From contig JAMXDE010000008.1 in the NCBI GenBank assembly GCA_026770025.1, forward strand, positions 2,914,001 through 2,978,000: DNA of 64,000 bases. The letters run 5' to 3'. The notes below the pieces were generated by a model. That model searched no databases, was not told the origin of the DNA, and worked only from the letters and a program-made list of their open reading frames with translations. The translations under genes and the position numbers were made by a program. Positions 4,411 to 53,709 of this stretch are shown piece by piece; the stretch's first letter is position 1, and the number at the start of each line of letters is the position of its first letter. The DNA is from Craspedostauros australis. Its lineage: Eukaryota; Bacillariophyta; Bacillariophyceae; Mastogloiales; Achnanthaceae.

Positions 4411-7400
4411 ACCTAACAGTTATAGTCCGTGTGATATATATGTACATGTTGTAGACCCCTGATGCGTGTTGGTGTGCATATCCAATGAACACCATCTCTT
4501 CTCTGTTCTTGAGTTTGGCGGTGATCCCGCCGTAGGTAGTCTTCACGACACCCACCTCTCCGAATGTGCGGAGTGCATCCGCGTATGGTGGATCGCTGCC
4601 GAAGAATTGTCGATGTGGTGACTCTTTCTGATTTTTCGCTATGGTGATGTTGGCGATGGCGGTGGCAGTGCTCGCAGCTGCTGCCCACAGGCCATGCCTA
4701 TACTCTTCGTCAAGCTGTGCTCCGTTGAGCATGGAGCGGATCTTGGTGTAGAGGTACGCGAACTTGCGTTCTACTCTACCATTCTGTTGCGGCGTGTTCG
4801 ATGCCGTGAATTCGAATTTCACGTTGAGTCCTGCATCGATGAGAATATCCTGCGTGGATTTGTTCTCTCCGCTGTTGTCTCCTCAGAAGATGATTTGTTG
4901 ATCACCAGTCTGTGACTTGATCGTCTGGACGAATCGTTTGATGTATCCTGGTTGGTCACTTTTGTTCTTGAGAAAGAAACTCCAGCAGTGATCTGTGCAG
5001 TCGTCCACGATCAGGGTCCAGTAGCGTTTATCTCCAAAGCTTATGTGTTTAGTGTAACTAATGTCAATGAAGAGATGTTCCCCGCAGCGAGTTGCTCTCG
5101 GGATCGTCGCCTTCAAGATGTTCTTCACTCTAGCGTTCGCGACCGCGCAGTCGCGACATACTGGCATCTCGCCGATGATCTTCCATCCGTATTGGGCGGC
5201 TCTCCGCTTCATGGTCACGAGTGGCGCGTGGCCGAGCATTCGATGCAAGTTCACCGCGCTGATCTCCTTCGATGGATTCTTGATGATGGCTGTGCAAGCC
5301 TTGTCGTCGTCCGTTGGCATGATGGGATGCATCTGCACTCCCGTGATGAATCTGTTGGATGTGGGGAAGACTCTGTACAGAGCCTTGTTCGTAGAGAAAA
5401 GGTTCACCGCCATTTTTGGTGTGTACTTCACATCATCGAGTCGGATGATGTGGCCAGTGTTGTTTCGTTGCTTGACCTTCAAGCGAATGGATCTCATTTT
5501 GGGAGAGTCCAGCTTCGTGCTGTCTCCCACTTGGACGAAGGACTTGATGTGCTGCACGTTGAAGAGAGCGGCGTCCAAATTGACGATGTGACACGAAGCT
5601 CCGCTGTCGGCGAGCCAGGTGTCCTTGTTGACCTTGTCCTTGTGCTTGGTGCTCAGTTCGTGGAGCTGTTCTATGGCTGCTGCAGCTATCTCGTCGTCAA
5701 AGCTGCCGTCATCGTCATCTTCGTGAACTCCGTCTTCGTTGTATGGATGATGGTGATCTTCATCATCCATGTCGTTGGGTAGTTGCGTGTAGTCCGATGG
5801 AATCGTACTGTTCCGATGTGATCCTGTGGCTGGATCATATGGGTTCACGCGTGGTCGTTCGCGTAAGAGTACGCGCATACATCCTCCAAGGATGTAATGC
5901 AGGTCCATTTCGGAGAGTTGGTCTTCTCCTGCTGCCTGCAATAGTCGGTTGAGGATGGCTGCGTTGGAAAGGATCTCTTCAATTGACTTGAAGTTGTCGG
6001 ACAGGATAGTGCTCACCATGTTCACCCATATGTATCACAATGGTTCGTTCACGAATCCTGGGAACATCAGCATTGCAGCTGTTAGAACTGCGTCATAGAT
6101 GAGCTGCTTCTGCATTCGTCTTGCAGTAACCGTTGGTTCTGGGAACATCTCGAGTCGGTAGATGTCGTCGACTCTTCTGGGGTTTGGCCCCGGTGGAAAT
6201 TGGACTCTGATTGGGTAGACGACATGTTCGTGGGGATTGAAGGTGTCGCTCGGACGACCTTCGGCTTTGCTGCTATCATCTTCGTCAAAGATGTCCGTTC
6301 TCTCATTTCCTGCTGCTGGAGGAGGCAGCGCTTCGCCGCGATTTGCCTCGTCTCCGGAGGCGTCGTCGTCGTCGTCGTCTTCGTCTGCACCGTCCTCGTC
6401 GGCGTCGTTGTCGTCTTCGCTCATGGCCTCCTCGACATCGATGTCGATGGCCTCGTTGCCCATCTCAGCTCTGTTGCCGTATGGACCAATCAGGTTGTTC
6501 GCGTTGAAGCAGCACTCGTAGCTCACCTCACGTCTTGGATCCACCTCGTGGATGATGGGCTCCTCGCTGAGCCACTCTGGGACGATCTCATCGTCCTGTA
6601 CTTCGTCGTCACTTCCGACGCACGCGAAGTTATCGAAGAAGGAATCTTCGATGTAGTCGTCGGACACCAACATGCAGAGCGGCATGTCCTTTGCTGAGAG
6701 TACCATCTCGTGCCCGCTCTTGTTGTGTCCTTGTGTTGCTGTGTTGGCCTGCTCGTCGGCCTTCTTCTTCTCGTTGAACTTCTTCTTTCGGCACTCCGCC
6801 TCGCGATGTCCGAAGATGCCGCAGTAGTTGCACTTCCCGTTGAAGCCGCTTCCCTTGTTGCGATTGTTGTTGCGCTTTCCATTCATTTTGTTGTTGTTGT
6901 TTTTCTTGTTGTTCGATTTCTTACGCTCAGGGCAATCCGCAGATCTGTGACCATACACACCACAGTTGTGGCAGGTCCCCTTGAAGTTACCGGTGCTCGT
7001 GAAGCCAGTATCGTTGCTCTTCGTGTTACTGTCTTGAAAGTTGTCGATGTACGCCTTTCCTCCTTGATGAGTGGCATGTGCTGTGCGGAGTACTCCTCTG
7101 ATCGCGTTGATGGTGACTACGTCTGGATTGAACGTGAGTTGGTGATGGAAGTTCACGATGTGAGTTTTGTACTCTTTGCTCACCGTGCTGAGGATCTGTA
7201 TGATCATGTCTTCTTCAGTGATCGTGTAACCGACATTGTGGAGACGCGAGCGTAGTATCTCGAGTCGCGTGATGTATACGTCGGGGTCTGAGGCTCTCTT
7301 CATCCTTTCGTTGTTGAATTGACGCTTGAGTTTGATCTTTGTCACCGCATCGGATGGGCGGAACTTCTCCGCGAGAATGTTCCACGCCGTGTGTGGATTC

Positions 7401-7657
7401 CCCTCAGGGTAATCATCGGAGATGCATTGATTGATGTATTGGATGGCTTGCTTGCCTTTTCCCTTCTCTGCATCCATCATAAGGATCAGATCGCTGAAGC
7501 AGTCAGCTGCCAGCTTGTGGGTTTCCTCCATCGCTTCCTTGGCATCTTCAGTGGCTGCTGCGATCTTGCTCACTGTTGGGATCTTCGTCTTGCCCAACAT
7601 CACGTCTCTTGTCTTCTGTGTGCGCGCGTACGCCTTCGCCTGGGACTCCCATGCGTT

Positions 7658-9085
7658 TGTCGAGATGTATATGTGATTATACGTCAAGATGTACGTGTAT
7701 ATGTGCATCGTTCACCCGCTATTCTCTCATACGCACTTGGACGGTATAACTACACTCGTGTCAATAGTATGCTGTGATTCGTCAGAATTACAGCGGAAAT
7801 GGAACACACGAAAAGGGGCAAGATTTCTGGAGGAAATTTGCAAATAACGATTTCTGGGAGAATCAGAAGATCGTCCGTCCATCCATCAATGGTACCAAGA
7901 GAATCTCGAGGTACTTCCCAACTAAACCTCAGATGACAATATCATCTGACAGGCTGCTGCATCACCAATGGAACATGACATCTGGAGAGCAGAAGGACGC
8001 CTACTGACGTCGACAGGATGTCAACATGTCACCACGTCGACAGCTGTCTCCAAGTCAGAGCAGGAGGCGAAGATGCGATGACCCATGAAGATCATGGATA
8101 CTGAAGGTGAACTTCAAATGGTAAGTACTCATGGAGTAGGAACCAGTACTGAATGAACAGAGTGTCGAATACGGAGTATATTAGCGCACGCTAAATCTCT
8201 AACAATAGCGACACCCGTCGACCAATCAGAAATCTTCACTTTTCTTACCTTTTCCGTTCCGAACGGAAATTTTGGTCGAAAATCCGTTGTGTCAGATTTG
8301 TGTCGCATTTCGCGTCGCAAGAATCGTTTTCCCTCAATCACAGATCCAAAAATGTCGTGGAAATTGATTTCTTGCCAAGATGAGCCAATCTGCCCAATCA
8401 GGACAGACTTGGATCTTGGGTGTGACACGTGCGAATCTTGCCCTGACCTTCTCAAGTGAATACAATCAATCGTGTGATCGTACTACTAGCAACATCGTGA
8501 GAAGACGTAATTTACAACACGGGCTATCGCGGTGTTTTTTGTTCATTGACTTTTGCACCTCATCTTCACGCAGTAACACGCACATTTGTCGTGTTGTCTC
8601 CGTGTTATTTTTACTTGCAATTGCATGAGATCATGTCATGCCTCTCTCATGCTCACAGTTCTCAAGAATCCATCTTGTGAGCTCGCCTGCATTCATACTA
8701 CCATACGAATAATACTCAATAACAACACTCATCCTCACCCCAACAACGATCTGATCACTCTACGTTTCGGTGCGGAATCCCATCCTTGATTTCGTTCTAA
8801 CAGAGTACGCATCGAACACAGAGTATCGTGTAGCACGAGCACACAATGTTGAGAGAGAGAGAGAGAGAGAGAGAATACAGAGAGGAGCGAGAGAGGATCT
8901 TGCATACCAACTCATAGTTGGAGACTGAATCTACAAAACAGATTGAAGCGCTGAGAGCATCGGGCAAGACAACTGGTGTACACCGAGAGGATCGGAGTAA
9001 CCAAGTAATGAAATAGCAAACAGACAACTATCAACCAACACCATCTTCCACGATCGTAGGTTACCGTGAGCGGAACTTGCCAACA
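7658..9085 (-). repeat. Copia-type LTR (copy A), inserted in gag of the older element
   Basis: The block reads TGTTGGCAAG...TCTCGACA on the minus strand and is flanked by a TGCGTT direct repeat (7652-7657 and 9086-9091), consistent with a 5-bp target duplication plus one chance base. Without its nested insert it is about 799 bp, matching copy B at 9650-10451 in inverted orientation over its full length. It contains a (GA)n microsatellite near 8850-8872 that copy B also carries as (CT)n. No internal region lies beside it, so it behaves as a solo LTR. Orientation relative to transcription is uncertain because both ends start TG and finish CA. Confidence 0.8.
8179..8802 (-). repeat. Solo LTR of a second Copia family, nested inside LTR copy A
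   Basis: A 624-bp block interrupts LTR copy A relative to copy B. It is bounded by a perfect 5-bp duplication, GAGTA at 8174-8178 and 8803-8807. On the minus strand it starts TGTTAG and ends CTAATA, close to the TGTTAG...CTAACA ends usual for Copia LTRs. Copy B lacks it entirely and keeps one copy of the target site. No coding sequence of note is inside. Confidence 0.82.
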
Positions 9086-35185: not shown

Positions 35186-35284
35186 TGTGAGAGGAGACTG
35201 TGAATTGGGGAAACACAGAATTTATGAGGTGTTCCTGTGGTGAGAGGAAGACGAGCACAGTCGGACATAGGCCAGACTGTGACA
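35186..35284 (-). repeat. 3' LTR of the young Copia element (99 bp)
   Basis: Identical by eye to 41479-41577. It is the downstream LTR on the minus strand and carries the target duplication GTTTG immediately outside. Confidence 0.93.
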
Positions 35285-35355
35285 CCCCCCCACGATCGCG
35301 AGGTCCAGAGGACCGCGTGATCGGAACGCTAATTAACTAAGGTAATGAATATATA

Positions 35356-38300
35356 TCAAACATGCGCATGTGTAAGAGCCGCCGCCCAGGGAGGAACATT
35401 GCGCCCAGATAGGCAGTCCCAATGGCGAACGAACAGGGGAGGCGTAGTCTGTTTGGTGCCGATGTCACCAGCATTGACCGCTGAATCGATGTCGCGGAAC
35501 AACACCATGTCGTTCTCAACCCACTGTTGTATGGCAAAGTGCCGAATCTCAACATGCCGAGTGCGCCTGGAAGGTTGACCGGCATTGGCGATCATGAGCG
35601 CCCCTCGATTGTCCTCGTAGAGCACCGTAGCACGCGATTGAGGTACTCCGAGCTCATCGAGCGTGCTTCGAAGGCATAGCGCCATGCGGCCCGCATCAGA
35701 AGCGCACAGAAGCTCCGCTTCAGTGCTGGACAGCGCGACGGTGGGCTGAACCCGTGCCTTCCAAGCCACGGCGCCACCAGCAAGCTTGAACGCCATGCTG
35801 GACACGGAGCGACGATGTCGTGAGTCAGACGCCCAGTCGCTGTCAGCGTACCCGTAGACCACAGATGGATCGTCATCGGGATGGACGTGACGCACATCAT
35901 GTGGCTCCGAGACACGCAACGGAACATCCACTTGTGGGAGAGCCGGCACCACCTTGGTGCGATGAAACGTGATGCCCTGCGTGCAAGTGGCGAACAGATA
36001 CCGGAAGACTCGTTTGACGGCAGTGAAGTGTGCCAGTCCTGGAGCTGCGGAGAATTGCGCAAGCTTTATCACAGGAAACGCGATGTCAGGTCGGCACGTC
36101 ACCATGGGCCAGATCAGCTCACCGATGGCGGCACGATAGGACCCAAAAGTAAGTTGAGCATGCTGTAGCCCAGCACCATCCAGAGGCGGCTCATCGTCCA
36201 GCATGCGGACATGACTGTTGTCAACCGCCATGGGCGTGCGAACCCCATGCATATCAGTCCATGCATGTCGCTCAAAGACCTTGTCCAGATACATGCCATT
36301 GTGCATCGAGATGTGCGTGCTGGTTTGAATGAGGTCCGTGCCATTGAAGTGCTTCAGTACGCCAAACCGCTTCATGGGAACGAAGAGGAATGCATCCAGC
36401 TCGTCGCAGATCCGTGCGTATGTACTCTCCGTCGCACACGCGATGGCGAAGTCATCGACCTGTCTCAGAAACAGTACGTCGTGACCATAGTAACGCGCAC
36501 GGTATAGGCATGGAGCATGTGTCGTAGGTACGAACCCCATGCGCTGCAGTTGTGCGTCAATGTGCCGCGCCCACTGGCGTGGCGCCTCGGGATGCCCTTG
36601 CAGGTTCTTCTGGATGGGTATGACGTGCCCATAAGGTATGGGAGAGCGACCTTGTGATGCCCACCAGTCCGCGAACGGTTGATCCACGTGCATGTAGTAC
36701 TTCTGAGCCCCGCATGGCGCCTCTGCAAATGCGTTGGAGACGTCGGCACCATAGATACATTTGTTCTCCATAGCCGCAACGGCAAGAAACAACCTGAAAT
36801 CTGTGGCATCCGGAGTGGCTGTGAAAGTATGCCCAGTATTCACTGCCTTGCCAGCACGCGGTGAACCATCGCAGACTGCTCTGGCCTTGCGCCTCGTTTC
36901 GGTGGGGTTCTGTTTGAGGACATACACCCACACCCAATGGAACACTTGGTCGCCCGGTCGCATCGCGACAGGCTTGCCAAACATGCCTTGGTCTGCATAT
37001 TGCTGCAGCTGCTTGTGCTCGGATTGTTGCCAAAGCTCCCAGTCGTCTTGCTTGCGGAGCGCTCGTCTTGTGAGCTTCATGACGGTGCGCGTGGCAGACG
37101 CATCATCACACGCCAGTGCTTGCTTCGCCCGTTGGCATAGACCGCGTATGTCGCGCCATTGATCGAAGTAGAGTTGTATGAGACCCTTCTCGGACAGCGT
37201 GTTACGGACGGCGTCAAACGCAAAGGTCATGACGACATGCGGATTGCCATCCTCGCGAGCTGCCGACACCGCCTGTTCGAGTTCATGGACGTTGTGTATC
37301 TCCACTCCGTCCACAGCAAGAAGATATGCGTGTCGTAGCCGATACCGCCACTGAGGAATCCTCCGGGCGCGATGCCCAGACGGGATGTCCAGTAGTCGAA
37401 GACGACCGCGCGTGTTATTGTCGTTCCAGACAATCCCGAGCTGCGGATGTTGCCCGAATAGTGGAATGTCCACGTCGAACGCCGTGTCGAATGGATGACT
37501 CGAGAAGTCAAGGAGCATCACGCCGCGTACCGAAACGTCCGTGGATACAGCAGCAGCCGAGGCCCCAGTGGGCATGACCATGCCTTCTCGAAGTGGCAGC
37601 GGCACGAGTGTAGCATCCCCACATGCACGAGGAACCTTGTGAAGTACCACTGAGGGTTGACACGCCAGTGGTATGGCCTTGGAGGCGGTGCCGTCGCTGA
37701 CATCGTCGCCGTCGTCTGGACATTCCACGCCAAGGTCGAACAGGAGCTGTGCGGAGGGAGGTCGCTTGTTGCTCATGAAGTGTGCCTCATCAAATACCAC
37801 AGACCCGCCAATCTTGACAGTGCCGGACGTCATGTCGTAGTACCGGATGTTGACGCCATCCCCAAGGAATCCAAGGAAGATCCCGCGGTACGTATGGACG
37901 TCAAGCTTGCGCGCCGGCTTATCAGGCTTGCGCACGGTGACCAGGGCACCAAACACGCGTAGATGTGCAATGTCTGGCTTCACGCCATTAAGCGCCTCGT
38001 ACGGCGTGCGCCCAATCGCAGAGCTCCACATGCGGTTGCGTAGGTATGCGGAGTGAACGATGGCCGCGGACCAGAATTTGGGTTCCAGTCCTGCTCCATA
38101 CAGCATGGACCTGACCATGACTGCAAGCACGCGATTGAGTCGCTCGACTTTGCCATTGCGATGGTGCACCCCGGAACCTGTGGGCTCCAGAACGTACCCC
38201 ATGCCGCGAACCATGCCGGAAAACTCTTTGGAAGTGAAGAGCTCGCCGCCATGGTCGACGCGAAGCGCGCGGTACCCCGTTTGAAGGCCGAATCTTTGGA

Positions 38301-39354
38301 GATGCTCTCGCACAAGCTCGATGGGAGCACGTTTGCCGTCCGTAGGGAATACCCATGTGTATCGAGACACTGCATCCACAATGATGAGGTACGCGGTGCA
38401 CCCATCAAAGGACGCCACCACAGGAGGCATGCCCTTCACCTTGTAATATCGGGCTGAACTGGCGCGCATGTACCCGAAGTCCAGGTGAAAGCGAGATCCA
38501 TTCATCATATGACCCACTTGGGAGACGCCACCCCGTGGCTGTCGCTGTGCGTGTGCGTCCAGACACGCGTCACACGAGCGCAACGGATGCCTGTCTAGAG
38601 CCACAGAAGACGGTAGCCCAATGGAGTGCTTGGGGAGCTGTACCATCTGCTGGTGACCTGGATGACCAAGGCGTTGATGCCAAATTTCATACGACAGTGC
38701 ACCACTGACGGCGTGGGCGACGTGCTTGTGTGCAGAGTATATGGTGGAGAAGAAGAAGAGATCGTTCGTCCTCACCATGGAGGCACGCTTGAACGTCGCA
38801 GCATCCTTTGTGTAGAACCGGACATGCGGATCATTGCGGTCACGACACACAACGTCGAATGTGTGAAAGACCTGCGAGTGCTCACATATGAGCTGGGGCG
38901 ACAGCAGGGTGGCTGAGACATGTTCGCAGAAGAACATGGGAATGGGAATGACGTCGCCATCGTCCAGTCGGAAGGGGAACACTCCCTTGTGTGAGCACAT
39001 CATGGCCTTGGACCGCGCATCCGCACCAGAAAGGTTGAGTGGATGTTCGAGCATACGACAGTCGATGAGCATGGCCTTGATACTGGTCACCAATATGTTG
39101 GCGCCCAAGTCACACTGCTGTCCCACCATGTGATTGAATTGTCCGATGGGGACCACTTGGTGCAGCATCGGTACCGTCGACTCGTCCGCAGATAGCGAAT
39201 GTGCGTGACACACATCGACTATGCAAGACTGATCCACCATTGCCCAGCCACGGACGCGGCGTTGGACTGTACTGCTCTTGTGCGCAGGTTTGGCATCGAG
39301 CGCCGGCAGAGTGTCACCAACAGTGACAGATCCTGCGCCTGCCGCGCTACCCAT
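35356..39354 (-). CDS. Copia pol: protease, integrase, reverse transcriptase, RNase H (1,332 aa)
   Basis: The domain order is that of Ty1/Copia. A protease-like motif (CDLGANILVT) lies near residue 85. The integrase zinc site (WHQRLGHPGHQQM ... SCDACLDAH) sits near 230-275, followed by the integrase core (FDGCTAYLIIVDAVSRYTWVF, DHGGELFTSKEF). The reverse transcriptase near 820-1060 has the VDD box in FLRQVDDFAIA. RNase H near 1190-1300 shows YGYADSDWASD, SSTEAELLCASD and YEDNRGALMIAN. Integrase before reverse transcriptase separates it from Gypsy elements. The frame is open throughout. Confidence 0.93.
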   Translation of the reverse strand: MGSAAGAGSVTVGDTLPALDAKPAHKSSTVQRRVRGWAMVDQSCIVDVCHAHSLSADESTVPMLHQVVPIGQFNHMVGQQCDLGANILVTSIKAMLIDCRMLEHPLNLSGADARSKAMMCSHKGVFPFRLDDGDVIPIPMFFCEHVSATLLSPQLICEHSQVFHTFDVVCRDRNDPHVRFYTKDAATFKRASMVRTNDLFFFSTIYSAHKHVAHAVSGALSYEIWHQRLGHPGHQQMVQLPKHSIGLPSSVALDRHPLRSCDACLDAHAQRQPRGGVSQVGHMMNGSRFHLDFGYMRASSARYYKVKGMPPVVASFDGCTAYLIIVDAVSRYTWVFPTDGKRAPIELVREHLQRFGLQTGYRALRVDHGGELFTSKEFSGMVRGMGYVLEPTGSGVHHRNGKVERLNRVLAVMVRSMLYGAGLEPKFWSAAIVHSAYLRNRMWSSAIGRTPYEALNGVKPDIAHLRVFGALVTVRKPDKPARKLDVHTYRGIFLGFLGDGVNIRYYDMTSGTVKIGGSVVFDEAHFMSNKRPPSAQLLFDLGVECPDDGDDVSDGTASKAIPLACQPSVVLHKVPRACGDATLVPLPLREGMVMPTGASAAAVSTDVSVRGVMLLDFSSHPFDTAFDVDIPLFGQHPQLGIVWNDNNTRGRLRLLDIPSGHRARRIPQWRYRLRHAYLLAVDGVEIHNVHELEQAVSAAREDGNPHVVMTFAFDAVRNTLSEKGLIQLYFDQWRDIRGLCQRAKQALACDDASATRTVMKLTRRALRKQDDWELWQQSEHKQLQQYADQGMFGKPVAMRPGDQVFHWVWVYVLKQNPTETRRKARAVCDGSPRAGKAVNTGHTFTATPDATDFRLFLAVAAMENKCIYGADVSNAFAEAPCGAQKYYMHVDQPFADWWASQGRSPIPYGHVIPIQKNLQGHPEAPRQWARHIDAQLQRMGFVPTTHAPCLYRARYYGHDVLFLRQVDDFAIACATESTYARICDELDAFLFVPMKRFGVLKHFNGTDLIQTSTHISMHNGMYLDKVFERHAWTDMHGVRTPMAVDNSHVRMLDDEPPLDGAGLQHAQLTFGSYRAAIGELIWPMVTCRPDIAFPVIKLAQFSAAPGLAHFTAVKRVFRYLFATCTQGITFHRTKVVPALPQVDVPLRVSEPHDVRHVHPDDDPSVVYGYADSDWASDSRHRRSVSSMAFKLAGGAVAWKARVQPTVALSSTEAELLCASDAGRMALCLRSTLDELGVPQSRATVLYEDNRGALMIANAGQPSRRTRHVEIRHFAIQQWVENDMVLFRDIDSAVNAGDIGTKQTTPPLFVRHWDCLSGRNVPPWAAALTHAHV

Positions 39355-39395
39355 GAGAGCAAGCCGTTCACGAGGAGGTGCCTCTCCTCGCCGGC

Positions 39396-41297
39396 TTAGG
39401 GAAAATCCTGCTCCAAGTGCATCACAGCCGTGAGGAGCTCCTCATCGGAGGGCTTCACGGAGGTGCCGGCGTCGTTGCCATCGACCTTGAGGAGCCGTGC
39501 GATCGCACGTCGAGTATCTGTCTTGCTGATGCGTCGCAGAGCAGTGCTGAGCTTGTCAGCCAGCTCCGTGTGCTTGTCACAATATTGTGCAAGGTGACGG
39601 TGACGTGCGAGGAAGATGCAGCTCTCGGCATGGTGGCCGCGTCGGCCACAAGCATCGCAGACTGCACCTGGTGCCGGCTGTCGAAAGACATTGCGACCCT
39701 CATCGTCATCGCCACGTCGGCCACGGGATCGGTCAGGGCTGCGAGATTTGCGGCCATCGGACCTATCATCATCGAACCGCACACCGCGGCGTTGCGACCG
39801 GGTGACAGCATGGGCGGTGTGTCCCGAGTCTGCCATGGCAGCCAACTTGACGGCCAGCTCGCCCACATGTAACCCGGCAGGGAGCGCCTCTTGGTCAGGA
39901 ACAGCCAAGACCATTTCACGGAACTGCCGAACGTTGTGACCGGCCCGCCCAACTTCATCAAGGAAGTGAATAGCCGCTCGACGCGGACTGTACTGATGAG
40001 CAGTTCCATGTTGGTTGAGGAACGCCATCAACGCGGTGGCAAACCCAATGATGCCGTTGGCAGCAACGTAGTTGGGCAGTACGGGGAGACCGGCAGCCGC
40101 TGGGGCCGTGACCATGTACTGAAGCACACGATGGAGAAAGTTGAATGCACTCAGCATTTCATGTCCGCGCTCTTGGAGGAACGCCTGGCTATGTAGAGCC
40201 AATGGCGTGTCGGGCAAAACCTCAAGAGTACCTGGAGTGGTTAGCTTGAGGAAGTGAGCATTGTTGATCGCCGCGACCGTCGCACTGGGTAGCGATGACG
40301 GAAACACGACACAGTCCATGCGATACATGAAAAGCGGAATGACATGCACACCAAACTGCGAGGCCACCTGTTGGTAGTGGTTGTACCACGTGCAGATGGC
40401 ATGTGGCTCGAGTGAGGACAGCTTGGGGATGAACGCATCGGAGAAGCCGCGCAAATCAATGCTGACGCGAGAGCTTGCCCACACCTTCCAAGTTGGGTGT
40501 GGGCCAAGATCCGCGCCATACAGCATGGCGTGCTTGTACTTGGCGCGGTTTGCCGCCTCGTCGCGCCGAATGTCCTCGTAAAAGTCAGGACACTCGCTGG
40601 CGCGGGTGGGCACAACCGCGCTGGGAGCAAAGCGCGCTGGGGGCACACGTGGTGTGCGTGTGTCAGGAGTGTCGACACCAGCATTGAACATGGCAGCAAG
40701 ATCTGGGTCCGCCACAAAGCTGTGGGCGTCGCCATCGGCATTGCCCGAGTTATCACGAGGGTGATCGTCGTCACGGGCACGGTCTTCATGCAAGTTGGAA
40801 GCCGTGCGCGTGGTGTCTTGGGGAGCAGAGGCTGCCGCAGCCATGGACGCTTCCAGAGGAGTGCCACCACGGTACATGGTAGAGTTGAAGTCGCCCCATT
40901 GGAAGGCAGTAGGAAGTGTGGATTTTTGAAACCAACCGCGAAGTGTCTTGAGCTCGTTGAGGTCAGCGGGATCAATGTCGCCGAAGCGCTGGAGCGCCGT
41001 AGACGTGCGACGATCGTCCTCGACTGAGAGAAGATGTTGCAGGCGCCCCCAGACAGCATCCTCGTCCTCGCAGTACTGGAAGTACTTCGCAACGACCGCA
41101 ATGCCGCTCGGAGAGAAGAACGCGGTGCGTAGGACGGGTCGAATCAGAGCGCCAGGTGCGAATGCAACCGCTGCCGGTGGCAGCGTTGCGCCATCAGCAG
41201 GAGCACCATTTCGCACGTTGCCGGCAGGAGGCGCGGCATGAGCAGGGTTGTCATTGCCGGACCCGCCGGTGCTGGGAGAGCTGCTGTTGCGCGTCAT
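39396..41297 (-). CDS. Copia gag with CCHC zinc knuckle (633 aa)
   Basis: The ATG at 41297 begins a Pro/Ala-rich head. The middle 250 residues resemble a retrotransposon capsid region (VSIDLRGFSDAFIPKLSSLEPHAICTW as landmarks), and a basic Ser/Arg/Asp segment precedes the zinc knuckle CDACGRRGHHAESC (C-x2-C-x4-H-x4-C). Gag and pol occupy separate frames, an arrangement for which Copia-like elements are known to use read-through or alternative RNAs. Confidence 0.85.
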   Translation of the reverse strand: MTRNSSSPSTGGSGNDNPAHAAPPAGNVRNGAPADGATLPPAAVAFAPGALIRPVLRTAFFSPSGIAVVAKYFQYCEDEDAVWGRLQHLLSVEDDRRTSTALQRFGDIDPADLNELKTLRGWFQKSTLPTAFQWGDFNSTMYRGGTPLEASMAAAASAPQDTTRTASNLHEDRARDDDHPRDNSGNADGDAHSFVADPDLAAMFNAGVDTPDTRTPRVPPARFAPSAVVPTRASECPDFYEDIRRDEAANRAKYKHAMLYGADLGPHPTWKVWASSRVSIDLRGFSDAFIPKLSSLEPHAICTWYNHYQQVASQFGVHVIPLFMYRMDCVVFPSSLPSATVAAINNAHFLKLTTPGTLEVLPDTPLALHSQAFLQERGHEMLSAFNFLHRVLQYMVTAPAAAGLPVLPNYVAANGIIGFATALMAFLNQHGTAHQYSPRRAAIHFLDEVGRAGHNVRQFREMVLAVPDQEALPAGLHVGELAVKLAAMADSGHTAHAVTRSQRRGVRFDDDRSDGRKSRSPDRSRGRRGDDDEGRNVFRQPAPGAVCDACGRRGHHAESCIFLARHRHLAQYCDKHTELADKLSTALRRISKTDTRRAIARLLKVDGNDAGTSVKPSDEELLTAVMHLEQDFP

Positions 41298-41478
41298 GGT
41301 GATGATGGCGAAAGAGCCGGAGGTGTTTGTTGTGTGTGTTCGTTTTTTTTTGAATTGTGGAGTATGCGAAAAACAGCCAGAACACCAACGATCAGACCAA
41401 TGACGGCGCTGGGTTGGGTGGAACGGCAGTGAAAACGCGTGTGTAAGACCGTGAGGTCAGAAAGAAGGCTCGAAAACC

Positions 41479-41577
41479 TGTGAGAGGAGACTGTGAATTG
41501 GGGAAACACAGAATTTATGAGGTGTTCCTGTGGTGAGAGGAAGACGAGCACAGTCGGACATAGGCCAGACTGTGACA
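41479..41577 (-). repeat. 5' LTR of the young Copia element (99 bp)
   Basis: Starts TGTGAGAGG and ends ACTGTGACA in plus-strand reading. It is identical by eye to the left copy and followed by GTTTG (41578-41582). Confidence 0.93.
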
Positions 41578-41938: not shown

Positions 41939-44265
41939 ATGGTGATGAGATCGTTGCTCTCCATCGTGGCATTGCACATTGTCGCTGTCCGGAGAGCTGC
42001 CGCATTGCACGCAACGGCACGCATGCGGTTCAACAATCAATTCTTACGTCAAAGCCGAAGATGCTACTGGCACAGCATCCGTCGGAGCAGCCATGATCGA
42101 TCAATGTTCCATGCTTCGACGTTTCGGATGATGCCCGAAGGCCCGGAGGTCCGCAATCTGGCGGATCAGTTCCAGCATGGTGTTGGGAAGCGACTGATTG
42201 ACATTCAGTTCCTTTCAGGTCGTTACGTTCGCCATGATAAGCCCGTGGGATTTTACGGTTTTGCTAAGACCATGACGAAGGCCGTCAGCGCGCCGGCGAA
42301 TAGCAACACCGCTGGCGGCAGCGTTCGCCACAAAGATGGCGACCATGTTGGAGGTGAGGATCCAGCTGAGAACAATCCACTGCTCCCAACCATCGACACC
42401 GTCGTGAAGTGGAGTTGCAAAGGCAAATTCATGTACATCATCTTGGATGACGGTGGCAGGAGTCGTACCGAACCTTCGCACGATGAAGATGACTTCCAAC
42501 GAAGCATCTGGATCACGCTCGGTATGACTGGTTGGTTTGTGGGAGAGGCGAAGCATCACGAGGATCCAACCCACGGTAGGTGGTACCTGGATTTGGTGGA
42601 CACGGAGACGGGGAACAAGTTGCGCACGTACTACCACGACCGTCGCAATTTTGGAACGCTCAAGTTTTCTCTTTCCAAGAAGGAGCTCGATGACAAGCTG
42701 TCGTCATTGGGGTATGATCTCATGGACGCGTCCACCTCTGAGGATTTGTTCTTGACCACAATGGCGAATCAGAATCAGGACATGAACATTTGCAAGTTCC
42801 TCATGAATCAATCGGTAAGTGATTGTTGACTCCGTTGTGCTGGTGTCATGGCCTGCTGCAGTGCTTTCGGAACCTGCTTCATGTATTGAGTGTGGGAAAA
42901 TCTTTGCTTTCCACCAGCGATATCAATGGTGATGGTAAGATCATTGCGTCTACCAATCGTAGCAGGCAACTGTAATGTTGGCCGTGCAACGGCATACGAA
43001 AGCAAAGCATCTGACGAGCGATGTTTCGAACATGCTTATTTTCACGCGTTGATGTGGTACATGTGACACGACATGCCATGGTATTCAACTTGCAGAAGAT
43101 CGCTGGCGTTGGAAACTACATCCTTGCGGAGGGTCTCCATAGAAGCCTGATCGATCCTTTCGCATCCCTCGACGAACTTCACGAAAGGCAACGGCGCACT
43201 CTCTTCAATGAATTGCGGTTGGTCATGATGCAGTCGTATGCAAAGCAACAGCGCAGGTGGCTGAAGGATAGTATCAAAACGCCAGGCACAAAAAGCGGAA
43301 ACGGTGAGGCAGATGCTGATGCAAATTCATCAGGCTTGGCAGAGTTCGAGTTGCAATGCTACAACCGAGCAAGGTGTCCACAGGGAGAGGAAGTTATTCG
43401 AGATACCGCAGGACCCCACGGGAGAACGATATGGTACACGAAGAAGCAACTCTTCAAACCGTTGGATGAACGGTTCGTGTCCCTTTCACACCACCAAGCA
43501 CAAACTGAGCACCGCAATGGATCAGATGATGCTGAAGCAGCTCGATCTCAGAACGCCAACGATTGGAAACACGTTGATCTCGTCCAGCAGCTGTCGGACG
43601 AAGGCTGGAAGGGAGCACTGCAACACATTCTGGAATCCGAACGCTTTCAAAATCTTCAAGCATTCTTGCAAGATGAGGCTGCCTCGGGCGCCACGATATT
43701 TCCCCCGCCTCAGCAAGTCTTCGCTTCGTTGAATCAATGCCGGTTTGACGACGTGAAGATTGTTATTGTCGGTCAGGATCCGTACCACGGCGCTGGTCAA
43801 GGTCATGGCTTGGCATTCTCGGTGCAAAAGGATGTGCCGCCACCTCCATCATTGAAGAATATCATTCAAGAATTGAAAGATGATGTTGGCATCAAACAGC
43901 CGGTGCATGGGAATTTGGAAAGCTGGTCACGGCAAGGAGTGTTGTTGCTGAACAGCGTGCTGACGGTGCGGCAGGGCGAGGCAAACAGCCACGCAAAGAA
44001 AGGGTGGGAGGAAGTTACCGATGCCATCATTGAAGCGTTGAATCAGAGGGAGGACGGGTTGGTGTTTCTCCTTTGGGGCAACCCAGCTCAAAAGAAAGCA
44101 TCGGGCGTGAACACAGAAAAACACGTGGTGATCAAGACTTCGCATCCATCTCCGCTGGGGGCAAGACGGACGGCATCGCCCTTCCTTGGATCACGATGCT
44201 TCAGTGATGCCAACCGTTCTCTTGCTCTCGTGGACAAAGCTGCTGTCGACTGGAATATCGTCTGA
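41939..44265 (+). CDS. Fused formamidopyrimidine/Nei-type DNA glycosylase and uracil-DNA glycosylase (two exons)
   Basis: Exons 41939-42814 and 43096-44265, phase-0 junction. Translation from ATG 42131 gives MPEGPEV, the exact N-terminus of Fpg/Nei enzymes, whose exposed Pro2 is the nucleophile and Glu3 the acid. ATG 41939 or 41945 would add a hydrophobic, Arg-rich leader without early acidic residues, possibly for an organelle. In short-form numbering Lys99 (CKGKFMY) matches the conserved Fpg lysine, then come ITLGMTG and YHDRRNFGTL. The splice joins into the helix-two-turn-helix segment KIAGVGNYILAEGL, and a zincless-type hairpin follows (CPQGEEVIRD, GPHGRTIWY). After a short linker comes complete family-1 UNG: VGQDPYHGAGQGHG with catalytic Asp, VLLLNSVLTV, FLLWGNPAQ and HPSPLGA with catalytic His. 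It should remove both oxidised/ring-opened purines and uracil. An insertion of about 45 residues interrupts the Fpg N-domain. Confidence 0.92.
42815..43095 (+). other. Intron of the FPG-UNG gene (281 bp)
   Basis: GTAAGT donor at 42815 and an acceptor ending TTGCAG at 43095. Removing it joins Ser to Lys in phase 0 and restores the conserved NQ...AGVGN helix-two-turn-helix motif of Fpg enzymes. The upstream frame meets a stop shortly after the donor. Confidence 0.9.
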
Positions 44266-44760: not shown

Positions 44761-45906
44761 ATGACGGAGGAGGCACAGCTGACGTCCGATCAGATAGATG
44801 ATCTTCGGATCAAGACGGAGGACGCGTTTAAGGAACTGAAAGAAAAGAGCGAGGCCGCAACGCCATCGACGTCTTGGATACGATCGGGAGACGATGCTGC
44901 ATCTGATGCCGCGACCACCCGCGAGAGCACCCAAAACGGAGCGACGGCAACAGCATGGGACAAGGATCGTTCACCGCGATGCCAATTCTTTGATCATTTC
45001 GGATTCACTCACGTCGGCAACTTTTGCGACGAGGATGAAGTGCGCAGGCTGAAGGAGCAGATGGCGGAGCTGGCCAACAATGATTGGCAATGCAACGACA
45101 AGGTGGCCTCGTTTGGCACGGACGCGAAAGCCAACAAGGCCAGGGGCGACTACTTCTTGGATTCCAGCAATCAGATTCACTACTTTGCGGAACCGACCGC
45201 GCTCGATGAGGATGGCAACCTGAAGTCTGACTTTGCAAACGACAAGCTGGCGGCCCTCAACAAGTCTGGCCATGCCATGCACATTCGGGATGGTGCATTC
45301 CGGGACTACACATTGTCGCAGAAGGTGCGGGACTTGGTGACGGATTTGGGTTGGGAGGATCCCGTGGTGCCGCAGTCGATGTACATCTTCAAGCAGCCGC
45401 GCATCGGCGGAACCGTGCACTCGCATCAGGATTCCACGTTCCTGCACACCACCCCGAAGCAATCCTGCTTAGGTCTGTGGCTGGCGCTGGATGATGCGAC
45501 GTTGGAGAACGGGTGCCTCTGGGTGCGGCCAGGATCGCACAAGGAGCCGTTGCGACGGCAATTCATTCGCAATCCGGAGTACTTTGAAGAAGGCAAGATG
45601 GATGCCTCCAAGCTGACCTTCCTTCAGCATCACGAGAATGATTCCGTCACCTGGGAGGGTGGTCTCCCCAAGGATCAATCACTGTGGGAGGCCGGATTCA
45701 TCCCTGTCGAATGCAAGGCCGGAGATCTGCTCGCCTTCTGCGGCACGTTGGATCATCTGAGCCTGCCGAACTTTTCCGATCGGCAACGCCACACATTCCA
45801 GCTACATCTCATTGAAGGTCCCAGGGCGGGCGTCACGTGGTCACCGCAGAACTGGCTCCAGTACCCGTTGCAGCAACCGTTCATCAGCTTGTTGAGAGAT
45901 ACGTGA
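44761..45906 (+). CDS. PHYHD1: Phytanoyl-CoA dioxygenase family protein, PHYHD1-like
   Basis: 381 residues from ATG 44761. This is an Fe(II)/2-oxoglutarate oxygenase. The first 80 residues are variable, then FFDHFGFTHVGNFCDEDEV begins the conserved fold. The iron-binding pair His222 and Asp224 lies in VHSHQDSTFLH. The distal His is likely that of LDHLSLPNFSDR, and the 2-oxoglutarate Arg follows in the same strand. Long stretches are diagnostic of PHYHD1 rather than peroxisomal PHYH: GHAMHIRDGAFRDYTLSQKV, VPQSMYIFKQPRIGG, LALDDATLENGCLWVRPGSH and TWSPQNWLQYP. The physiological substrate of PHYHD1 is not settled. No peroxisomal signal is visible at the C-terminus (SLLRDT). Confidence 0.93.
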   Translation: MTEEAQLTSDQIDDLRIKTEDAFKELKEKSEAATPSTSWIRSGDDAASDAATTRESTQNGATATAWDKDRSPRCQFFDHFGFTHVGNFCDEDEVRRLKEQMAELANNDWQCNDKVASFGTDAKANKARGDYFLDSSNQIHYFAEPTALDEDGNLKSDFANDKLAALNKSGHAMHIRDGAFRDYTLSQKVRDLVTDLGWEDPVVPQSMYIFKQPRIGGTVHSHQDSTFLHTTPKQSCLGLWLALDDATLENGCLWVRPGSHKEPLRRQFIRNPEYFEEGKMDASKLTFLQHHENDSVTWEGGLPKDQSLWEAGFIPVECKAGDLLAFCGTLDHLSLPNFSDRQRHTFQLHLIEGPRAGVTWSPQNWLQYPLQQPFISLLRDT

Positions 45907-50268: not shown

Positions 50269-53200
50269 TCATCCGTCGAACTCATACTCCTCATCGCTGC
50301 TTTCCACGTCACCATCATCATCGTTACCGTCACTGCCAGCTACGCTCTTCTCACTTTCCTCCTCGTCGCTTTCACGCAGCGAACCAACCGTCTCTTCGTC
50401 CGTGGATGCTGTGCCTTCGCCTGCTGCGACGCCATCTGATGAATGCCCATCGTCATCTTTTGCCATCCGTGATCCTGCTCTTGCTCCTACTTTTGTGTCT
50501 GCCTCTTTCTCTGCCATTGTTGACGTTAAGGACGATGGCGTTGGTAGATTCGCCACCTTGTGCACAAATGTCAACGGCAAATCTGGATTCTTGGCAACCG
50601 CCAACAGCGGAGCGTCGTTGAGCTGTTGCTCCAGCAACGACCCCGCACCGGAATAGTCCGGCCACCGATTGCCCACCTTGCGTTTCGTGTCGCAGGCGCA
50701 ATCTTCCTTCAGCGTGAAGCAATCCTGCAGTTCTTCACGCGTGAACAGCCGGGACGATGCCTTGGACGACGAATTCTTGCGCTTCGTCTTCTGATCGACA
50801 GTCAACTCCACGAGCTGGCCCTTCTGGACTTGACGTTGGTAGATGACTTCTTCTACCGTTCCCGCCGTGAAAAGGCGGTAGATGTAGCACTGCTTGGTCT
50901 GACCAGGACGGAAGATTCGCGCCATGGCCTGCTTGTCGGAGGATGGATTCCAGTCGGGATCCAGCATGATCAATCGGTTGGCGCGGATCAGATTGAGTCC
51001 GCACCCACCGGCCTTGCTGCTGAGCAAGAGCATGAAACTCGTCTTGGGGCTGGTCTTGGAGAACGTCGAGAGGATCTGGCTGCGCTTCACCATCTCTGTG
51101 CTACCATCCAGCCGCAATGTCTTCCAATCTGGATGCCTGATGCGGCAGACCTTGTCCTCGACGTAGGACAGTGCCATCGTGAAGTTCGACACCAGGACGA
51201 CCTTGTCATCAGGAGAAGTGGTTCGGATCTCGTCCAAGAGACGTTCCAGGATTTGCAGCTTCCCCGATTGACGCAACGCCTCCATGGCATCTTGTACCGC
51301 CTTCGTTTGTTCGATAGATGCGGCATCATCGTTGGGCATGTATTCGAAATTGCAGTCCTCGCTGGTGACGCGGCTTGATTTGCGTCGCTTTGCTTTGGCG
51401 CGTGATTTTGCGGTGTTGCTATCCACTTGATCTTCCTGAGACTGCTTGGACTGCACGAGGGATGGATGAAGGCAAATCTTGCGCAAGTTCATCAACGTCG
51501 TCAATGCGTCTGCTGTCACTCCTTTGGTGGATTCCGACGACTGCGACATGCCGGCAGCCAGCTGTTTGTACACATCGCACTGTGCTTTGGTCGGTTTGCA
51601 AAACAGCAGCAGCTCGTGGCGCGGTGGTAGAAGATCGTACAGGATGTCTTTCTGCAACCGACGCAGCACGAAGGTGGAGAGGATGCGTTCCAGCAGCTTC
51701 GCTTGCTGCGCGCCGTATTGACGCTCGGCGGGAGTTGCATTCTTCGTTGCAGCGATGGCAATGGGGCGTTCCACGTACTTGCGGAAAGTCGATGTGTAGG
51801 CGTTCCCCAAGATGCCAGGGCAGACGAAGTTGGACAGAGTGTAAAGATCGCACAGAACGTTCTGGATGGGTGTTGCCGTCACGAGAAGCCGGCGCTGGGT
51901 TGGTATGGACTCCAACGCCTTGAACGTCGCCGTTCCCGACTTTTTCTTGAGGACGTGGCCTTCGTCTAGCACCAGCAGGGACAGCGGGAGCTTGGCAAGC
52001 GGTTCGAGGAAGGTGCTGATACCGCGACGCACCATTTCGTACGATATGATCATGATCTGCACGTTGCGCTGGTTGGAGGCTTGGACGAAGGACTTCATCT
52101 GCTGCTGCACCATCTGCGTGCTGCCTGGCGTGATGGTACATCGCTTGGGAAAAGAAGCCTTGCCGATCCACTTGTCAAACTCGTCCGACCAATTGTGCAC
52201 CAGGGCGGAGGGGCAGATGATCATGAACCTCGAGGTCTTGCGATCCTGACGGAACAATGCGCAGATGAGCGTGATCGTCATGAGGGTCTTGCCAAGGCCC
52301 ATCTCGTCGGCAAGGATGGCGCCCTGTATCTGCTTTGGTATGCTCGTTGAATGATCATTCCTTCCATGGCCATTGCCATTGTCGTCGTTGTCTTCTTCGG
52401 CATCGAAGAGCCAGGATGTGCTCATCGACGCGCCGGCATCCATGGAGGCCAGAAGTTGCCGAGGAGTCAATCTCGGCTGAGTGAGGCAGTTCCAGAGAAA
52501 GTTGACGCCTTGAATCTGGTACGGACGTAGCGCGCTGTTGATGGACGCTGGAATACTCATGGCGGCGTCCGTAGCTGTATGGGAGACCTTGGATAGTGGC
52601 GACATTGGCGACCCTATGACACGTGATGGACGCGTTCGTGTTGGCGTGGACATGCCTGATGATGCCATGGCGACAGATTTTGTTGTTGCTGTTGCTGTAG
52701 TTGCTGCTGAAGATGATGACGATCTTGCCAGAATGCCTCGTGGTTTCTTGCGCGGTGGTGTGGAAAGCACGACACTGTCCGTATCCTGCGGCGTGCATGT
52801 AGGCGTAACAGTCGGAACGGCACTGGATTTGGATGTAGCCGTTGGTGTGAATGTTGCTCCACTCCTGCTCGTGCTTGTCGCTGCGCCCGTTTTCGTGATG
52901 ATTTGATTGCGCTTGATGGGTGGCACGAACTTACGGATGGGGGCGCCAGAGAGCGACCGTCTGTTGATCAATCCTTTCGGAACGAAGGAGCTGCTGCTGG
53001 ATCCCATGAACTTCGGTGTTGGCTGCGTGACAGTACCATCTTCGTTTTGTTCGTCGCCGTCTTCGCTATCGTCACACCCGTCATCGCCGTTGGGGCTGCC
53101 GTCAGAGATGCCTCTCTTACCAGTATTGATGCTTGTGGTTGCTGTAGGTTTTGGACCGGGTGGTGTGAGCTTGTTGGTGGATATACGAAGAGAGTTGGAT

Positions 53201-53709
53201 GCAAGTTTCCCAACCACCAACTTGCCGCCATTTCGGTGACGCAACACCGTGTTCGTTTTCTTCCCCGATGTTGGCTTGAGGCTGCCACCGACGCCGCGCT
53301 TCCCTAACACCATCTTCCTCCCCACGATGATCCGTTGCTGATGCGTGGTTGGTGTCTTGCTCGCAACGGCCGCAGCTGGCTCTTTCTGGCAAGATGCACT
53401 CGCCCTCGATGGCATGCATGACACGATCTCCACCTCGTATGGTCCGACCTGAACGATGTCATCATCGCTCAGGGCACCCTGTTTGCACAGCTCCACGGCG
53501 CGGCCATGGAACGCGGCGCCATTGGACAGGGCCTTGACGGAAGTTCCGCTTGCACCGTTGCCGTCGTCATTGTCGTCCTCGTTGATGATGGCAGTGCTGG
53601 TCTTGGGGATGATGAAGAGGTAGCCATCCAGCTTGTGCACGCCCTTGGACTTGTGCTTCTTGTTCTTGCGCTTGTAGTACAGAACCTCATACTTTTGGAA
53701 TGAGCTCAT
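50269..53709 (-). CDS. RAD54B: RAD54B/Rdh54-type SNF2 DNA translocase
   Basis: 1,146 residues, one exon, ATG at 53709. RAD54-family motors remodel Rad51/Dmc1 filaments and drive strand exchange in homologous recombination. The N-terminal 100 residues (YEVLYYKRKNKKHKSKGVHKLDGYLF ... DDDIVQVGPYEVEIVSC) match the small beta domain (DUF2439/ZGRF1-like) found at the start of RAD54B and Rdh54 but not RAD54. A disordered Ser/Thr-rich region runs to about 380. The SNF2 motor follows: IQGAILADEMGLGKTLMT (Walker A near residue 470), FMIICPSALVHNW, LLVLDEGHVLKKK (DEGH near 583) and LLVTATPIQN. The C-terminal helicase half has LRLDGSTEMVKRSQIL, SSKAGGCGLNLIRANRLIMLDPDWNP and QAMARIFRPGQTKQCYIYRL. The last 90 residues are acidic. 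Convergent with GT14 (130 bp gap), divergent from UBE3C. Confidence 0.92.
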   Translation of the reverse strand: MSSFQKYEVLYYKRKNKKHKSKGVHKLDGYLFIIPKTSTAIINEDDNDDGNGASGTSVKALSNGAAFHGRAVELCKQGALSDDDIVQVGPYEVEIVSCMPSRASASCQKEPAAAVASKTPTTHQQRIIVGRKMVLGKRGVGGSLKPTSGKKTNTVLRHRNGGKLVVGKLASNSLRISTNKLTPPGPKPTATTSINTGKRGISDGSPNGDDGCDDSEDGDEQNEDGTVTQPTPKFMGSSSSSFVPKGLINRRSLSGAPIRKFVPPIKRNQIITKTGAATSTSRSGATFTPTATSKSSAVPTVTPTCTPQDTDSVVLSTPPRKKPRGILARSSSSSAATTATATTKSVAMASSGMSTPTRTRPSRVIGSPMSPLSKVSHTATDAAMSIPASINSALRPYQIQGVNFLWNCLTQPRLTPRQLLASMDAGASMSTSWLFDAEEDNDDNGNGHGRNDHSTSIPKQIQGAILADEMGLGKTLMTITLICALFRQDRKTSRFMIICPSALVHNWSDEFDKWIGKASFPKRCTITPGSTQMVQQQMKSFVQASNQRNVQIMIISYEMVRRGISTFLEPLAKLPLSLLVLDEGHVLKKKSGTATFKALESIPTQRRLLVTATPIQNVLCDLYTLSNFVCPGILGNAYTSTFRKYVERPIAIAATKNATPAERQYGAQQAKLLERILSTFVLRRLQKDILYDLLPPRHELLLFCKPTKAQCDVYKQLAAGMSQSSESTKGVTADALTTLMNLRKICLHPSLVQSKQSQEDQVDSNTAKSRAKAKRRKSSRVTSEDCNFEYMPNDDAASIEQTKAVQDAMEALRQSGKLQILERLLDEIRTTSPDDKVVLVSNFTMALSYVEDKVCRIRHPDWKTLRLDGSTEMVKRSQILSTFSKTSPKTSFMLLLSSKAGGCGLNLIRANRLIMLDPDWNPSSDKQAMARIFRPGQTKQCYIYRLFTAGTVEEVIYQRQVQKGQLVELTVDQKTKRKNSSSKASSRLFTREELQDCFTLKEDCACDTKRKVGNRWPDYSGAGSLLEQQLNDAPLLAVAKNPDLPLTFVHKVANLPTPSSLTSTMAEKEADTKVGARAGSRMAKDDDGHSSDGVAAGEGTASTDEETVGSLRESDEEESEKSVAGSDGNDDDGDVESSDEEYEFDG

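Follow-up and report, generated by a model that had tools for sequence, protein, structure and literature searches.

The analyzed window, a 64,000-nucleotide stretch of the Craspedostauros australis genome (contig JAMXDE010000008.1, positions 2,914,001 to 2,978,000), contains a two-exon gene whose product begins with a presequence and then joins a Nei/Fpg glycosylase, through a short linker, to a family-1 uracil-DNA glycosylase (Ung). The features of this gene, numbered within the window, are as follows.

41939-44265, + strand: fusion gene, 681 aa in two exons, ATG at 41939
41939..42814, + strand: exon 1, residues 1-292; the start codon has A at -3 and G at +4
41939..42127, + strand: presequence, residues 1-63, with a signal-peptide-like hydrophobic core (LLSIVALHIV), an ASA-type site (AAA/LHATA) and a tail with 11 basic residues and 1 acidic residue
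42128..42133, + strand: Met64-Met65, immediately N-terminal to the catalytic proline
42134..42136, + strand: Pro66, the residue predicted to act as nucleophile in the Nei/Fpg half; Glu67 comes next
42134..43467, + strand: Nei/Fpg half, residues 66-416, split by the intron
42815..43095, + strand: intron, 281 nt, GT-AG (GTAAGT...TTGCAG), phase 0, with in-frame stops inside, within the helix-two-turn-helix region (NQS/KIAGVGN)
43096..44265, + strand: exon 2, residues 293-681 and stop
43468..43581, + strand: linker, residues 417-454
43582..44262, + strand: Ung half, residues 455-681, family-1 uracil-DNA glycosylase
43771..43788, + strand: GQDPYH motif with catalytic Asp520
44143..44163, + strand: HPSPLGA motif with His642 and Leu646

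The reading frame stays open across the splice junction and matches that of the homologs. An initial annotation of this DNA had proposed a one-chain fusion of the two glycosylases in a single spliced frame, and this was borne out: the coordinates are exact, the domains are recognized by Pfam and NCBIfam, and the motifs named for both halves are present in the 681-residue product. MPEGPEV, which had been taken as the start of the protein, is preceded by 64 residues, and neither the presequence nor the buried N-terminal proline had been described. Upstream of the gene lies a full-length Ty1/copia element (35186-41577, - strand) with identical 99-nt LTRs (35186-35284 and 41479-41577) and a 5-bp target duplication, GTTTG; it is a recent insertion and ends 361 bp upstream of the fusion ATG. 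A second pair of copia-type gag and Pol fragments was found at 4883-7708 (- strand). A PhyH (phytanoyl-CoA dioxygenase) gene follows immediately downstream of the fusion gene (44761-45906, + strand), and a gene for an SNF2-family helicase occupies 50269-53709 (- strand).

In Pfam searches the window protein matched UDG (64.7 bits) and Fapy_DNA_glyco (38.3 bits, cut-off 25.5) above the cut-offs and H2TH slightly below (34.0 bits, cut-off 34.7). In NCBIfam it scored 253.5 bits with TIGR00628 (ung), above the cut-off, and this equivalog score, together with GQDPYH, the uracil-binding Asn and HPSPL, places the C-terminal half in family 1 of uracil-DNA glycosylases. Its closest known relatives are the family-1 Ungs (human UNG, 1akz; B. 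subtilis, 3zoq), from which the diatom version differs in sitting in a fusion. The bacterial-type Fpg (MutM) model of NCBIfam, TIGR00577 (fpg), gave the window protein 70.2 bits, far short of its cut-off (203.3), and the C-terminal CxxC of the C4 zinc finger was absent from the consensus of 48 fusions. Conservation was counted at ungapped positions in an alignment of 120 homologs (the best 120 of 313). In the Nei half, Pro66 and Glu67 were present in 110/110 ungapped homologs, Lys163 in 118/119, Met196, Phe238 and Arg402 (the finger Arg) each in 119/120, and Arg236 and Asn299 each in 120/120; in the Ung half, Asp520, Tyr522, Phe533, Asn578 and His642 were each present in 120/120 and Leu646 in 118/119. 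We take these to be the active-site residues with the roles familiar from both enzyme families, and the two halves look to be under selection as enzymes. Across 121 aligned sequences the linker varied from 21 to 202 aa in length (median 43), consisted to 71% of disorder-promoting residues and had a median identity to the window protein of 13%, versus 54-65% in the domains. No PIP-like motif was found in the linkers with the two patterns tried.

A homology search with residues 60-681 as query yielded 313 proteins at E<=1e-3, and domain content was taken from the best 120, which were 42-53% identical to the window protein. H2TH and UDG occurred together in 120/120 and Fapy_DNA_glyco was also present in 113 (precomputed domains). 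Thus, the same fusion recurs in related species, where the initial annotation had suggested looking for it: the named fusion homologs among the best 120 of 313 were diatoms, three truncated names having been looked up in the taxonomy, in genera including Cylindrotheca, Fistulifera, Thalassiosira, Conticribra, Nitzschia, Mayamaea, Stephanodiscus, Chaetoceros, Leptocylindrus, Minutocellus and Dactyliosolen. That annotation had also named separate transcripts for the two domains as the finding that would undo a one-chain protein; on this point the evidence comes from the relatives, in which a single mRNA is supported because seven of the 120 homologs are transcript-derived fusions (P0014, P0034, P0038, P0048, P0051, P0083 and P0108). 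Where homolog records carried a functional name it was usually uracil-DNA glycosylase alone, a label that makes it easy to miss the second activity; a single record among the 120 (P0103) was named for both. Searches of the open-access literature (titles and abstract openings, with subscription journals mostly outside their scope) yielded no description of a Nei-Ung fusion, and we know of no other natural protein that unites two different DNA glycosylases and keeps both active sites. The fusion is real and conserved, a new arrangement of known enzyme families.

The solved structure nearest to the Nei half was MvNei1, which we take to be Nei1 of mimivirus, both by sequence, for the window protein, and by fold, for P0181 only. 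The latter is an unfused relative on which the Nei fold was tested; in whole-fusion fold searches, UDG entries took up the best 50 matches. MvNei1 (PDB 3a42, 3a45 and 4nrw, and 3vk7 with 5-hydroxyuracil DNA) and NEIL1-type enzymes are the closest known proteins, ~30% identical to the diatom Nei half, but they are single-domain proteins without a presequence. Identity reached 36% with relatives on viral contigs and was 22-32% with bacterial proteins. As judged from sequence comparisons, the closest kin of the Nei half are mimivirus Nei1/NEIL1-type enzymes and not bacterial Fpg. The initial annotation had proposed the removal of oxidised purines by the first half; given its affinity to NEIL1/MvNei1, and with a separate OGG-type gene in the host, oxidised pyrimidines, Fapy and hydantoins appear at least as likely as 8-oxoguanine to be substrates. 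In addition, a GGxYR stretch that precedes the finger in the consensus of 48 fusions is absent from the window protein, and the substrate preference of its Nei half may differ for this reason.

Phylogenetic analysis of the Nei half, in which the viral set comprised 26 of 46 dereplicated relatives (from 80), united 24 fusions and 6 unfused proteins in a clade (100/100) that left the viral-contig relatives outside. The unfused proteins, Triparma strigata P0168 together with P0169, P0176, P0181, P0185 and P0196, grouped together (99/93), adjacent to the Nei halves of the diatoms. T. strigata is assigned in its taxonomy record to Bolidophyceae, the sister group of diatoms. These six relatives are 309-356 aa long and lack the Ung half, and since four of them have, like the fusions, an extension that ends in MM before PEGPEV, the presequence probably arose before the fusion. 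When a very distant outgroup was included, the window protein belonged to a group of 13 (96/93) in which all the genera that could be named (Nitzschia, Fistulifera, Cylindrotheca and Mayamaea) are presumably raphid diatoms, and the fused Nei halves came out as a single group (86/34). Without an outgroup, no supported group contained the window protein, and the best topology needs two changes, while a single fused clade had a p-AU of 0.335. A single origin of the fusion is thus neither shown nor rejected by these trees.

A viral or bacterial source of the whole fusion was also considered and found no support. No Ung match (tblastn, E<=1e-3) was present in the flanks (<=5 kb, often shorter) of 80 viral-contig Nei loci, representing 80 of 128 relatives, or (tblastn) within up to 2.5 kb of 34 bacterial Nei loci, and a scan of the viral contigs with the diatom fusion P0028 gave no match.

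In the Ung tree, from which cyanobacterial and red-algal Ungs were left out, the fused Ung halves grouped with the standalone Ung of the host (L002) and a clade of diatom standalone Ungs (95/96), from which the fused copies were not separated; seven unnamed eukaryotic sequences came next (94/92), with oomycetes outside. Unlike the fusion, L002 has neither a presequence nor a Nei half and begins with MITSFFKPK, which we take to be a PIP-box-like motif. Seven sequences labelled as standalone (P0213, P0251, P0257, P0260, P0290, P0296 and P0298) fell among the fused Ungs; four of them are probably C-terminal pieces of fusions, with a linker motif common to the fusions P0099, P0110 and P0111.

The nucleophile of Nei/Fpg glycosylases is the free amine of their N-terminal proline, and their activity requires it. 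In the primary product of the fusion gene, the catalytic proline is residue 66, behind the presequence. We surveyed this junction in 318 proteins (the window protein and 317 others), of which 116 had PEGPEV behind at least 20 residues; the remainder, including 120 from the Ung search, start near PEGPEV or lack the motif. A Met-Met pair directly preceded the proline in all 116, which are related sequences (the window protein, 69 fusions and 46 mostly partial models including three unfused relatives), and directly preceded PEGPEV in 150/150 proteins with at least two upstream residues. Among 110 distinct 16-mers, likewise related and not independent, 103 had S/T at -6 and 99 had I, P or L at -4, and the positions between varied. 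The Met pair occurred in 0/80 viral-contig Nei relatives, a comparison in which only the missing first Met is informative since the selection pattern contained MPEGPEV; the residue before MPEGPEV was other than Met in 76/80 and absent in 4/80. AlphaFold models of P0028 (mean pLDDT 84.4, pTM 0.57) and of P0181 (mean pLDDT 79.3, pTM 0.75) had pLDDT<50 at residues 1-46 and 1-50, respectively, with low confidence up to the Met pair and order from about the proline onward; the mutual placing of the P0028 domains is left open by its pTM. In the alignment, Pro52 of P0181 fell at the position of residue 2 in both MvNei1 and MutM. We infer that the proline would become the N-terminus of the chain.

Targeting features were evaluated by home-made scoring of 105 dereplicated sequences with >=40 residues before PEGPEV, using 100 shuffles. 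A hydrophobic core (KD>=2.0) was detected in 73 of the 105 presequences (shuffles: mean 32.5, maximum 46) and an ASA-[FWYL] site in 89 (mean 32.2, maximum 43), and the tails contained 44 acidic versus 763 basic residues among 4809. In the comparison set, the N-termini of 14 standalone Ungs, there were no cores and one site. Chlorophyll-binding proteins, with 61 matches in the host genome, some of which had an ASAFAP-type presequence, provided a weak positive control: 9/16 loci were usable, with seven cores and six sites (shuffled maximum 6). According to the accessible text of two papers, a core, an ASA-type site and a basic, acid-poor transit peptide are marks of diatom plastid import (PMC4329603, PMC3774753). 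Phe occupied position +1 of the site in just 29/105 presequences and the window protein has Leu; Tyr, Trp or Leu are described as permitted there (PMC3774753, accessible text).

The junction itself nearly fits a published diatom pattern, in which transit-peptide cleavage is followed by Met removal. The accessible text of PMC3774753 reports that in T. pseudonana Met stands right before the mature N-terminus in 18/63 plastid proteins and is probably taken off once the transit peptide has been cleaved, and that the cut has Leu at -2, hydroxylated residues at -3 to -6 and acidic residues after it. Compared with the Leu -3/Met -1 arrangement given there, the hydrophobic residue of the diatom fusions is off by one, and because it lies at -4 from the proline and not at -3, either two Mets would have to be removed or the cut shifted. 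Pro is absent from the residues that the same text gives as following an excised Met.

On balance, we consider it fairly probable that the protein is a plastid-imported double glycosylase for uracil and oxidised bases, whose import processing makes its catalytic N-terminus. In this scheme, a nuclear diatom gene would encode a two-headed base-excision-repair glycosylase, composed of a NEIL1/mimivirus-Nei1-type enzyme, a flexible linker and a family-1 Ung. The presequence would carry the fusion protein into the plastid, where the stromal processing peptidase would cleave at or next to the Met pair; a Met aminopeptidase would then take off the remaining Met and free the proline, allowing the Nei half to form its Schiff base. 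On plastid DNA, the mature enzyme would excise oxidised bases with the Nei half and uracil with the Ung half, and other compartments would be served by the separate Ung, Fpg and OGG-type genes. More tentatively, at a little short of even chances, the first active site may be non-existent in the precursor, so that import would create the proline end and oxidised-base activity would be on only inside the organelle, with uracil removal riding along; the front enzyme would be shared with bolidophytes and nearest to giant-virus enzymes, and the back enzyme would be kin of the standalone Ung of the host. The most likely role would be repair of oxidation and cytosine deamination in plastid DNA by one imported chain. 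The initial annotation had thought of clustered light-induced or oxidative lesions, for or against which the present findings carry no weight; the anatomy is better accounted for by a single protein that would bring both repair activities to the plastid. These findings suggest that across diatoms the DNA of one compartment, most likely the plastid, is served for both oxidised bases and uracil by a single chain. The Met-Met-Pro junction predicts processing that ends exactly at the nucleophile, and the fusion offers one enzyme on which joint repair of oxidised bases and uracil could be tested.

The main rival reading is alternative initiation, which we consider unlikely. The Met pair would then be a second translation or transcription start: a long form would go to an organelle, its Nei half perhaps silent owing to the buried proline, and a short form starting at Met65 would lose this Met and act in the nucleus or cytosol with both activities. 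The internal Met pair is invariant, as a start site might be, and its first ATG puts an A at -3 of the second; however, initiation at the first Met would leave Met-Met-Pro, and the conserved S/T-x-I/P/L-x ahead of MM is unnecessary for a start site. No other in-frame Met occurs within 30 residues before the pair in 71/107 homologs, but at least one additional in-frame Met precedes the pair in 101/107. In the window gene, the first ATG is in strong context and is separated from the pair by three in-frame and three out-of-frame ATGs; these make leaky scanning less likely but do not count against a second promoter. The records of 35/120 homologs begin at M or MM before the proline, in favour of this reading, and the motif is missing in 12/120; these records, which include the transcript-derived Leptocylindrus P0034 and Dactyliosolen P0083 and the Nitzschia inconspicua gene model P0070, represent either true short forms or truncated models. 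Two other Ungs, P0278 and P0303, start with a hydrophobic segment, after which come an internal Met and a PIP-like SISSFF or IKNFF; this suggests dual targeting via two starts and would lend the idea a parallel. Human UNG1/UNG2 have a comparable two-form arrangement of the N-terminus. On the other hand, the N-terminus of the host's separate standalone Ung is already of nuclear type.

Mitochondrial or dual targeting in place of plastid import has, in our view, a small probability. The basic-rich, acid-poor presequences and the scarcity of Phe at +1 would suit it, but the frequencies of the core and of the ASA-type site are well above those in shuffles, and the accessible text of PMC4329603 and PMC3774753 describes such presequences for plastid import, the latter allowing Tyr, Trp or Leu at +1. 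It is quite improbable that the Ung half alone is active and that the Nei half is a DNA-binding module: the proline is indeed not N-terminal in the primary product, but a binding module would not need the Met pair or the nearly invariant Pro, Glu, Lys, Asn and finger Arg, all of which are kept. An assembly or gene-model artefact joining two adjacent genes can be rejected almost with certainty: the one feature that might suggest it is the intron, which is located within the first domain, and the fusion is present in each of the best 120 of 313 homologs, from genomes, metagenomes and transcriptomes.

We also searched the host genome (74.8 Mb, 90 contigs) for other glycosylases. Pfam searches of the genome score each exon separately and missed the Nei half of the fusion itself (both Fapy_DNA_glyco and H2TH), so gene counts are lower bounds. 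In addition to the standalone Ung, separate genes for Fpg (L008) and an OGG-type enzyme (L105) were detected. There were also four copies of another Nei-like gene (L003, L004, L005 and L006), three of which had a stop inside the H2TH match, and a zinc-finger-like C-terminus was seen in L003 and L005.
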